Source: Blattabacterium sp. (Nauphoeta cinerea) (GTDB lineage Bacteria > Bacteroidota > Bacteroidia > Flavobacteriales > Blattabacteriaceae). From it: a DNA stretch of 64,000 nucleotides. The first letter of the stretch is position 1. Every line of letters begins with the position of its first letter. Below the pieces are notes generated by a model. That model did no database searches. It was not told the DNA's origin and was given only the letters and a program-made list of their open reading frames with translations. Both the position numbers and the translations under genes were made by a program. Positions 55,887 to 58,850 of this stretch are shown here, one piece after another. The stretch covers positions 310,001 through 374,000 of the forward strand of contig NC_022550.1 of assembly GCF_000471965.1 (NCBI RefSeq), written 5' to 3'.

Positions 55887-56909
55887 ATGTTCATTAAAAA
55901 AAACTTTTCTCTAAAAAAATTTAATACATTTGGAATAAATATTTATGCTCGTTATTTTGTAGAAGTAAAAAGTATAAAAGACCTTCAATATATTTTGGAT
56001 ATATATCCGTACATATCAAAACTTTTTTTAGGAAATGGGAGTAATATTCTTTTTATAAAAGATTATTATCCGGGAATAGTAATAAAAATGGGAATGAAAG
56101 GAAAAAAAATAATAAAAGAAAATGATTATCAAGCTATTGTTCAAGCTTATGCTGGAGAAAATTGGGATGAGTTTGTAAATTGGACGATAAAAAAAGGATT
56201 TAGTGGGTTAGAAAACCTATCATTTATTCCTGGTACAGTTGGAGCCGCCCCCATTCAAAACATCGGGGCATATGGAACAGAAATCAAAGATACTTTAATC
56301 AAAGTAGAAGCATATGAAATAGATAATAGAAAAATAAGAGAATTTACACGTCAAGAATGTCAATTAACATATCGTGATTCTTGTTTTAAGCATCCTCATT
56401 ACAGAAATAAATTTCTGATTTTATCTGTTTTTTTTATTTTAAGAAAAAAATATAAACAATTAAATACATCTTATGTAGAAATTAAAAAAGAATTAGAAAA
56501 TATGAATGTGAAAACACCTACTATGAACGATTTAATTCAGGCAATTTTTAATATTAGACAAAAAAAACTTCCAAATCCAAAAAAAATTGGAAATGCTGGT
56601 AGTTTTTTCACAAATCCTATAATAGGGGTGTTAGATTTTCAAAAACTTAAACATCAATATCCAGATATTATAGGCTATAGTGTTTTTAATCACAAAATCA
56701 AACTATCTGTTAATTCATTAATTGAAAATATAGGATGGAAAGGAAAAAAAATTGGAAATGTAGGAATATATGAAAAAAAACCTATCATTTTAGTAAACTA
56801 TGGGAAAGCGACTGGAATGGATATATATTCTTTTTCTGAAAAAATAATAAAAAACATAAAAAAAAAATTTGGAATCCCTTTATCAAGAGAAGTAAATGTC
56901 ATACAATAA
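55887..56909 (+). CDS. murB: UDP-N-acetylenolpyruvoylglucosamine reductase
   Basis: Reduces UDP-enolpyruvyl-GlcNAc to UDP-MurNAc in peptidoglycan synthesis, using FAD and NADPH. 340 residues, type I like E. coli. FAD-binding LGNGSNILF and FIPGTVGAAPIQNIGAYG, and the proton donor Ser in GNAGSFFTNP. The YRDSCFKH segment with the Tyr of type I enzymes is present. Peptidoglycan synthesis is thus kept, together with uppP and the divisome genes. Confidence 0.95.
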   Translation: MFIKKNFSLKKFNTFGINIYARYFVEVKSIKDLQYILDIYPYISKLFLGNGSNILFIKDYYPGIVIKMGMKGKKIIKENDYQAIVQAYAGENWDEFVNWTIKKGFSGLENLSFIPGTVGAAPIQNIGAYGTEIKDTLIKVEAYEIDNRKIREFTRQECQLTYRDSCFKHPHYRNKFLILSVFFILRKKYKQLNTSYVEIKKELENMNVKTPTMNDLIQAIFNIRQKKLPNPKKIGNAGSFFTNPIIGVLDFQKLKHQYPDIIGYSVFNHKIKLSVNSLIENIGWKGKKIGNVGIYEKKPIILVNYGKATGMDIYSFSEKIIKNIKKKFGIPLSREVNVIQ

Positions 56910-57007: not shown

Positions 57008-57832
57008 ATGTCAATGACTATAACTTTAGAAAAATCAAAACAATATATACAAAATAAAATCAAAGAAAAACCTGATTTTGGGATTTTATTATTAGGAGAT
57101 CAATTCTATAAATTTATAGAGGAGATCAAAAATCCTATATGCATTTTTTATGAAGAAATCCCCCTTTTTTCAAAAAAAAACTTATATGGAAAATTTTTAT
57201 TCGGTAAAATAGGAGATAAGAATGTAGTCCTTTTAATAGAGCATTTTTATGAAGAAAATAGAACAAACAATTTCCTTATAGTCCTGTTGTGTAAAAATAT
57301 AGGAATAGATAAATTAATATTGATGAATTTTTCTGCTGGAGTCAATCCCAACTATAAAATGGGAGATGTTATGTTAATTAAAGATCATATTAATTTTTTT
57401 CCTGAAAATCCTAATATAAAAGAATTTATAAAAAATAGATTCTTTGAAATCACAGAACCATATGATAAAAAAATGATAGAAATTGCAGAAAATATTGCTA
57501 TGAATCATAACATTATTATTCAGAAAGGAGTATATGTTGCTTATCCTTATCCTAATTATAAAACATATGCAGAATATGCAATGATACGATCTATAGGGGG
57601 GGATAGTGTAGGTATGAATCTGATTACAGATGTTATCACAGCCAGATGCATGAATTTACGAGTATTTTCTATATCCATCATTATGGGGATAGGGGGGGCA
57701 TATGAACAAACCAAAGAAAATAATCGACATAATTCCAATGAAATCAATTTTTTAAAACAGCTTGATCAAGAAACAGAAAAATCTATATCTCTTCTAATAT
57801 TAATAATAAAAGAATTTATCAAACTTTGTTAA
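57008..57832 (+). CDS. Purine nucleoside phosphorylase-like protein with altered active site
   Basis: 274 residues of the trimeric PNP/MTAP family. The fold is recognised by FSAGVNPNYKMGDVMLIKDHINFFPENP, a GVYVA strand and GGDSVGMNLITDVITA. Motifs expected to bind substrate are changed: the phosphate loop GxGLG reads GDQFY (near residue 30), the GRFHxYEG phosphate/ribose motif reads IEHFYEEN, the purine-binding Glu in the FET motif is Lys (NYKT), and the S-x-ITN purine Asn is absent (SIIMG). A promoter-like box and intact frame suggest it is still expressed. It may have lost phosphorolysis or changed substrate. It overlaps mrp by 14 bases. Confidence 0.75.
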   Translation: MSMTITLEKSKQYIQNKIKEKPDFGILLLGDQFYKFIEEIKNPICIFYEEIPLFSKKNLYGKFLFGKIGDKNVVLLIEHFYEENRTNNFLIVLLCKNIGIDKLILMNFSAGVNPNYKMGDVMLIKDHINFFPENPNIKEFIKNRFFEITEPYDKKMIEIAENIAMNHNIIIQKGVYVAYPYPNYKTYAEYAMIRSIGGDSVGMNLITDVITARCMNLRVFSISIIMGIGGAYEQTKENNRHNSNEINFLKQLDQETEKSISLLILIIKEFIKLC

Positions 57833-58850
57833 TAATATTTATTCCATACAATTGATTGATAATATTTTTCGTAATATTTAGAAATATATTTCTAACTTCC
57901 TCATTTTCTAATACAACAGGTATTCCTAAATCTGAATATTCTCGTATGTTTTGTAACATGGGAATTTCTCCCAGAAAAAAAATATTCATTTTTTTAGAAA
58001 AATCTTTAACTCCATTTTTTCCAAAAAAATAACATTTTTGTTTTTTTGATAAAACATAAGACATATTTTCTATAATTCCAAGTATGGGAACATAAATAGA
58101 TTCAATACGAAACATTCCTACAGACCGATTGACATCCGACAAAGCTATTTTTTGAGATGTACTTACTATAACAATTCCTTTTAATGGAATTTCTTGTAAA
58201 AGAGATAAATGAATATCCCCTGTTCCTGGTGGTAAATCTACAATTAAAAAATCTAATTTTCCCCAATTAGTTTCGTGCATAAACTGTCTTAAAACTTTAG
58301 TTACCATGGGCCCCCTCCAAACAATAGCCTGTCCATATTTTGAAAAAAAACCTATGGATAGAATTTTAACTCCATAACTAGTAATAGGATTTATAATTCC
58401 ATTTTTATATTGAAAATTAACAGATTTATTTTCAATATTAAACATTAATGGAATAGAAGGGCCATAAATATCCGCATCTAATAATCCTACATGAAACCCC
58501 ATTTTTACTAAAGAAACAGCAATATTTGTTGAGATTGTAGATTTTCCTACTCCTCCTTTTCCAGAAGCAACTGCTATTATATTTTTTATTATAGATTTTG
58601 TTTTTGTATTTGTATCTGATTTGATTTCTATTTTTATACCTATTGTATCTGAAATATTTTGATTTTTTATAGAACGGGTAATATCTTTTATAAGTTTATT
58701 TTTTATATGCATAGCGGGATTGGATAAACTCAAGTAGATCTTGATTTCATTATCTAATAAATCTATTTTTTTTACCCAACCAGATTCTATGATATTTTTA
58801 TTATCAACAATAATAACATTTTCTAATGCTTTTTCAATTTTTTTTTTCAT
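57819..58850 (-). CDS. Mrp/NBP35-type P-loop ATPase, iron-sulphur carrier
   Basis: 343 residues. A short N-terminal DUF59/MIP18-like domain (1-85) is followed by the ATPase with the deviant Walker A ASGKGGVGKST, LDADIYGPSIPLMF, and LIVDLPPGTGDIHL. It should transfer [4Fe-4S] clusters to apoproteins, such as MtaB here. The CxxC found in many ApbC proteins is not seen (only one Cys at KKQKCYFFG). The gene begins with an A10 run after the ATG that is in frame. Confidence 0.9.
   Translation of the reverse strand: MKKKIEKALENVIIVDNKNIIESGWVKKIDLLDNEIKIYLSLSNPAMHIKNKLIKDITRSIKNQNISDTIGIKIEIKSDTNTKTKSIIKNIIAVASGKGGVGKSTISTNIAVSLVKMGFHVGLLDADIYGPSIPLMFNIENKSVNFQYKNGIINPITSYGVKILSIGFFSKYGQAIVWRGPMVTKVLRQFMHETNWGKLDFLIVDLPPGTGDIHLSLLQEIPLKGIVIVSTSQKIALSDVNRSVGMFRIESIYVPILGIIENMSYVLSKKQKCYFFGKNGVKDFSKKMNIFFLGEIPMLQNIREYSDLGIPVVLENEEVRNIFLNITKNIINQLYGINIINKV

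Follow-up and report, generated by a model that had tools for sequence, protein, structure and literature searches.

Open reading frame 57008–57832 of the Nauphoeta cinerea symbiont, a Blattabacterium, encodes a member of the purine nucleoside phosphorylase (PNP) superfamily by descent and fold that lacks the phosphate-site and purine-site residues expected of a PNP enzyme. On balance, the protein is best regarded as a PNP-derived pseudoenzyme that has been re-purposed for a non-phosphorolytic role, probably one of binding or scaffolding; we infer both its inactivity and its binding role. Pseudoenzymes are a general category that includes pseudokinases and pseudophosphatases, and the Blattabacterium protein resembles them in its conserved fold, lost catalytic residues, and selective maintenance. 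To our knowledge, no PNP-family pseudoenzyme is known from a reduced endosymbiont. Endosymbiont genomes are usually interpreted as lists of surviving enzymes, and here a reduced genome may have retained an inactivated enzyme in a new role, rather than only losing an enzyme, at one node of the tree. The gene counted as a PNP in a metabolic model does not seem to be a PNP gene, and this suggests a solution to a problem that the 2013 Blattabacterium study left unsolved (PMC3819652).

The Gene and Its Family

The gene was read in a window of 64,000 nucleotides, from a genome of 626,626 bases in two contigs. Its 274 codons hold no internal stop, as the sequence-only reading had stated. The true start may be the second methionine codon (57014), since the frames of most relatives begin there. 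The left neighbor is murB, and the convergent right neighbor is a gene that we take, from its sequence features, to encode an mrp/apbC-type ATPase. At their 3′ ends, the PNP-like gene and mrp share 14 bases (57819–57832). A promoter scan returned four promoter-like sites, fewer than in shuffled sequence (mean 8.9), and a terminator scan found no terminator. The features are as follows.

55887–56909, + strand: murB, conserved left neighbor (profile match and neighborhood comparison)
57008–57832, + strand: PNP-fold protein, 274 amino acids; start could be 57014
57092–57106, + strand: former phosphate loop, LGDQF (LGS/TGL in relatives); second Gly replaced by Gln in 38 of 41 copies
57182–57187, + strand: site of a three-residue deletion (E-G-H in relatives); gap in 41 of 41; the His is the equivalent of human His64
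57236–57253, + strand: former RFHYYEG, now IEHFYE; Arg in 0 of 41, His in 0 of 41
57326–57367, + strand: retained core NxSxGVNPNYKMGD; the Asn115 equivalent is residue 107; residues 107, 113, 119, and 120 invariant
57485–57619, + strand: most conserved stretch, residues 160–204; pN/pS 0.20 for residues 151–205
57545–57565, + strand: former purine-binding GPxFET, now PYPNYKT; the Glu201 equivalent is Lys185
57683–57688, + strand: former Thr242-Asp/Asn243 pair, now Met-Gly; Thr in 0 of 41, Asp in 1 of 41
57689–57781, + strand: unconserved flap in place of the His257 region; pN/pS 0.71; pLDDT below 50 at residues 230–241; His in 0 of 41
57819–58850, − strand: presumed mrp/apbC-type ATPase, conserved convergent right neighbor (open reading frame and neighborhood comparison)

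The frame is the one PF01048 protein in its genome (E = 4.3e-26; 92.2 bits vs. a cut-off of 25.1). It misses every NCBIfam PNP cut-off, scoring 178 vs. 218 for PRK08202 and 164 vs. 293 for TIGR01700, and the same two cut-offs are missed by all four Blattabacterium proteins scanned. Both are reached by one Flavobacteriales PNP and by the PNP of G314, a 1.3-Mb genome of the same family. Among the 11 NCBIfam matches of the frame, none is a nucleosidase model.

Predicted Fold

AlphaFold2 with eight aligned sequences, four of which were canonical PNPs from viral contigs, gave a model with a pLDDT of 83.8 and a pTM of 0.85. Only PNPs are found among its best matches to solved structures (rmsd 2.4 Å over 255 residues, Z 31.6), which is the outcome of a structure prediction check that had been proposed from the sequence. 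When the alignment was restricted to four Blattabacterium sequences, a pLDDT of 65.0 was reached by one model of five and the other four stayed below 40; PNPs are still the best structural match of the former (E 1.4e-18). The fold claim is therefore mainly homology-based. The PNP fold is predicted to be retained, along with part of the ribose pocket. The trimeric (low molecular mass) PNP, PunA/PNPH (EC 2.4.2.1), has the same fold and length and shares with the Blattabacterium protein the core segments NxxGxN..GD...DHIN and VGM. In the trimeric enzyme, Phe159 of the neighboring subunit reaches into the pocket. The earlier observation that core fold motifs remain holds, and the equivalent of Asn115 is present in 41 of 41 copies.

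Active Site Residues

All 41 Blattabacterium copies were aligned with 15 comparison PNPs, 14 of them from 13 Flavobacteriales genomes and one from G314; a profile search had found 200 matching genomes outside Blattabacteriaceae. One locus (L063) was left out as it belongs to the same genome as L091. Pocket residues are named by alignment, with what we take to be the human PNP numbers for equivalent sites. Among the structure matches are crystal structures whose titles refer to human PNP mutated at E201, N243, or H257.

Each of the motifs reported as changed in the sequence-only reading differs from the comparison proteins. The G-S/T-G phosphate loop has become G/E-x-Q, RFHYYEG has become IE-H/P-F-YE with the His deleted, and GPxFET has become PYxNYKT, so that the purine-binding Glu is present in 0 of 41 copies and Lys185 stands in its place in 39. 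SxITD has become SIIMG, the HEEV region is unrecognizable, and the E-G-H triplet that precedes a loop Gly is deleted throughout. The purine-binding Asn of that reading is indeed replaced but was misnamed; it is Asn in human PNP, and each of the 15 comparison proteins has Asp at this position. Among these 15 proteins, all canonical by sequence, no active relative carrying the altered residues emerged. Unlike PunA/PNPH, the Blattabacterium protein has its phosphate, purine, and 5′-OH residues replaced or deleted across the 41 copies (one copy keeps Asp243) and does not reach the NCBIfam PNP cut-offs. No copy retains any of the equivalents of human Arg84, His86, Ser220, Glu201, Thr242, His257, and His64, and Ser33 is left in 14. 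Of 13 key residues, 3 are kept in 7 copies, 4 in 12, 5 in 16, and 6 in 6; among the comparison proteins, 12 have all 13 and the other 3 have 12.

Judged from the aligned sequences, the active-site replacements are not random. New pocket residues are nearly fixed, namely Tyr181 and Tyr184 (41 of 41 each), Lys185, and Asn or Asp204 (40 of 41). Former active-site residues that are kept besides the Asn115 equivalent are Glu89 (37 of 41), Phe159 (35), Met219 (32), and Tyr88 (25). Among positions that are nearly invariant in the genus, 28 differ from G314 and 65 are common with it.

Descent and Timing

G314 carries a canonical PNP with all motifs, and its gene order is murB, one frame that is presumably lpxK-like, and then the PNP gene, so the canonical orthologue and the Blattabacterium protein are both encoded near murB. 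Because a member of the same family has a canonical PNP in this position, the change is dated to the Blattabacterium stem. In the PNP tree, built with 17 of the 41 copies, Blattabacterium and G314 form a clade with support of 100/98, with 1.21 changes per site on the stem of Blattabacterium and 0.17 on the G314 branch. The corresponding branches of the murB tree (14 copies) are 0.60 and 0.56. The long stem branch is what would be expected if the gene had been acquired from elsewhere in altered form, but the supported clade and the location of both genes by murB make such an origin the least credible of the histories considered. G314 also yields another PF01048 match, a short one within a frame of 140 residues (G314:C4:136892–137290, L094), perhaps a truncated nucleosidase.

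Distribution in the Genus

Of 49 Blattabacterium genomes, 41 encode the PNP-like protein, with one copy each, and 8 do not; no other PF01048 members occur in the 49. The order murB, PNP-like gene, convergent mrp was found in all 29 loci examined. In the eight genomes that lack the gene, murB directly faces mrp across spacers of 43, 46, 57, 64, 73, 100, 215, and 654 bases, and no clear PNP similarity is seen in these spacers. The 654-base spacer (L055, G026) is possibly an eroded remnant of the PNP-like gene; most other gene-less genomes have 43–100 bases. On a tree of murB and mrp, the absences need three changes, with a minimum of two forced by the starred branches, and carriers lie on both sides of the midpoint root. 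Since three changes suffice and carriers flank the root, ancestral presence with repeated deletion is the simplest history. About three deletions, leaving eight genomes without a copy, indicate that the role is dispensable in some lineages.

Co-loss with other genes was considered as a clue to function and gave none. All 49 genomes have a full-length purH (over the cut-off in 43), and urease alpha passes its cut-off in 48, so that neither gene matches the 41/8 split. Hypoxanthine-guanine phosphoribosyltransferase (HGPRT) is over its cut-off in none of the 49 and hence does not separate carriers from non-carriers. In one genome of 639,415 bases (G027:C1:144678–144899), what remains of urease alpha is a tail of 67 positions that contains three stops; urease has apparently been lost there.

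Selection and Remodeling

The PNP-like protein is under ordinary purifying selection, like murB and mrp. Frames are open in all 41 copies, and median dN/dS is 0.26 for the PNP-like gene (370 pairs), 0.31 for murB (402), and 0.29 for mrp (388), as calculated by NG86 for pairs with dS below 0.8 in 29 of the 41 copies. NG86 ignores base composition and the pairs are non-independent, which makes the absolute values rough and the comparison with the neighbors the useful part. Pooled pN/pS for ten pairs of related genomes is 0.34, 0.31, and 0.32 for the PNP-like gene, murB, and mrp, respectively, and changes at third codon positions are about three times as frequent as those at second positions. Along the protein, pN/pS is 0.20 for residues 151–205 and 0.71 for the flap at 228–258.

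General wear of endosymbiont proteins was addressed with murB as the one control gene. Among columns that do not vary in 14 relatives, 35 of 61 are kept in the PNP-like protein and 57 of 64 in murB (Fisher p = 8e-5); 22 of 61 vs. 2 of 64 are missing from all 28 copies compared. The second PNP of one genome (L045 of G050) was left out of this comparison, and L029, cut by the end of its locus, was left out for murB. Judged by this one control gene, which keeps far more of its invariant columns, the change in the PNP-like protein is not such general wear. A preferential loss of catalytic columns was rejected, with 8 of 16 canonical active-site columns lost vs. 30 of 72 other conserved PNP columns (Fisher p = 0.59). 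Since active-site columns are not lost more often, the whole molecule was remodeled rather than surgically deprived of catalysis.

A slowly decaying pseudogene, kept by chance, could account for the roughly three independent deletions, for active-site columns that were not specially lost, and for higher ratios in some pairs, such as 0.54 for L020–L022. Set against this are the 41 open frames, a dN/dS as low as that of murB and mrp and not near 1, and 53 columns that stay invariant across 29 copies in an association estimated at more than 200 million years (PMC9603385). Slow decay is therefore rejected as a general reading and is improbable as an explanation of the gene. It was one of three readings offered in advance from the sequence; the other two, neofunctionalization and a binding-only role, both fit and are inseparable at that level.

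Purine Metabolism

HGPRT is the usual salvage partner of PNP. It is over its cut-off (TIGR01203) in none of the 49 Blattabacterium genomes, where the best weak matches are frames of about 310–390 amino acids, and just over it in G314 (151.1 bits vs. 150). A PF00156 scan of nine genomes found three large proteins in each of the eight Blattabacterium genomes and no small phosphoribosyltransferase in them. Together with the ubiquitous purH, this suggests that Blattabacterium probably synthesizes purines and is without the enzyme that normally uses the bases a PNP would release. With purines made and HGPRT missing, the reason to keep PNP activity would be removed, and the loss of HGPRT presumably preceded the change in PNP. 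With both a canonical PNP and HGPRT, the less-reduced G314 is a useful outgroup when losses in Blattabacterium are to be dated.

The 2013 metabolic model includes BLBBGE_377 of strain Bge, an annotated PNP of the same genus with seven reactions, all blocked; the authors found no role for the gene and removed it (PMC3819652). BLBBGE_377 is very probably the orthologue, since each Blattabacterium genome examined has at most one PF01048 protein. It was treated there as EC 2.4.2.1, and the main text has no occurrence of “active site” and no mention of residue loss (PMC3819652). That annotation, the PF01048 score above the cut-off, and the PNP fold would favor a protein that is still a PNP with unusual residues. 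However, the phosphate-binding Arg, His, and Ser220 and the purine-binding Glu are missing in all 41 copies, the NCBIfam PNP cut-offs are not reached, no HGPRT is present to take the product, and all PNP reactions are blocked in the model (PMC3819652), so retained PNP activity is very unlikely. Among the open-licence literature searched, no report of active-site loss in a Blattabacterium PNP was found, and a look-up of purine terms in the genome papers PMC3287516 and PMC6039017 gave no hits. The literature matches listed contain no recognized proteome, expression, or activity evidence for the protein, and those listed for pseudoenzymes with purine nucleoside phosphorylase contain no case.

Possible Functions

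In the favored explanation, a vertically inherited PNP ceased to be a PNP on the Blattabacterium stem, either once HGPRT-based purine salvage had been lost or at the same time. By alignment, the phosphate site (Ser33, Arg84, His86, Ser220) is dismantled, as are the base site (Glu201, Thr242, Asp/Asn243) and the 5′-OH contact His257, and the base end of the pocket is rebuilt with a nearly fixed new set of Pro180, Tyr181, Tyr184, Lys185, and Asn/Asp204. Phosphorolysis is not expected because the phosphate-binding residues are gone. Non-catalytic binding would then be most likely, with either a metabolite held in the rebuilt pocket or a partner protein bound through the highly conserved residues 160–205.

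The murB-like dN/dS fits any retained function, catalysis included, and the retained Asn115, Glu89, Phe159, and Met219 leave room for another reaction. The main rival is therefore new catalysis without a need for phosphate, such as nucleosidase-like hydrolysis or another glycoside reaction. The PNP superfamily includes phosphate-independent nucleosidases; the near-fixed new pocket residues, selection equal to that on enzymes, and the mostly kept ribose-side Tyr88, Glu89, Asn115, Phe159, and Met219 would all suit such an activity. Against it, the Asp/Asn243 loop is now Met-Gly, the flap is unconserved, the NCBIfam matches include no nucleosidase model, and inspection by eye recognized no newly invariant pair that matches the acid and base of a known nucleosidase. 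New catalysis is accordingly a serious alternative, though an unlikely one.

Within the preferred non-phosphorolytic reading, a tentative version is that a purine-salvage enzyme became a metabolite-binding protein in one burst on the stem, with the new pocket held for the life of the genus. The Glu to Lys charge change at the base end of the pocket, the gain of two Tyr, and the dismantled phosphate end would be in keeping with this. The cockroach host stores urate beside the bacteriocytes. Urate or xanthine, with oxo or acidic groups where the amino group of guanine sat, would be a highly speculative choice of ligand. Whether the protein is a re-purposed dead enzyme is testable with two purified proteins, as the canonical orthologue of the same family serves as a control.
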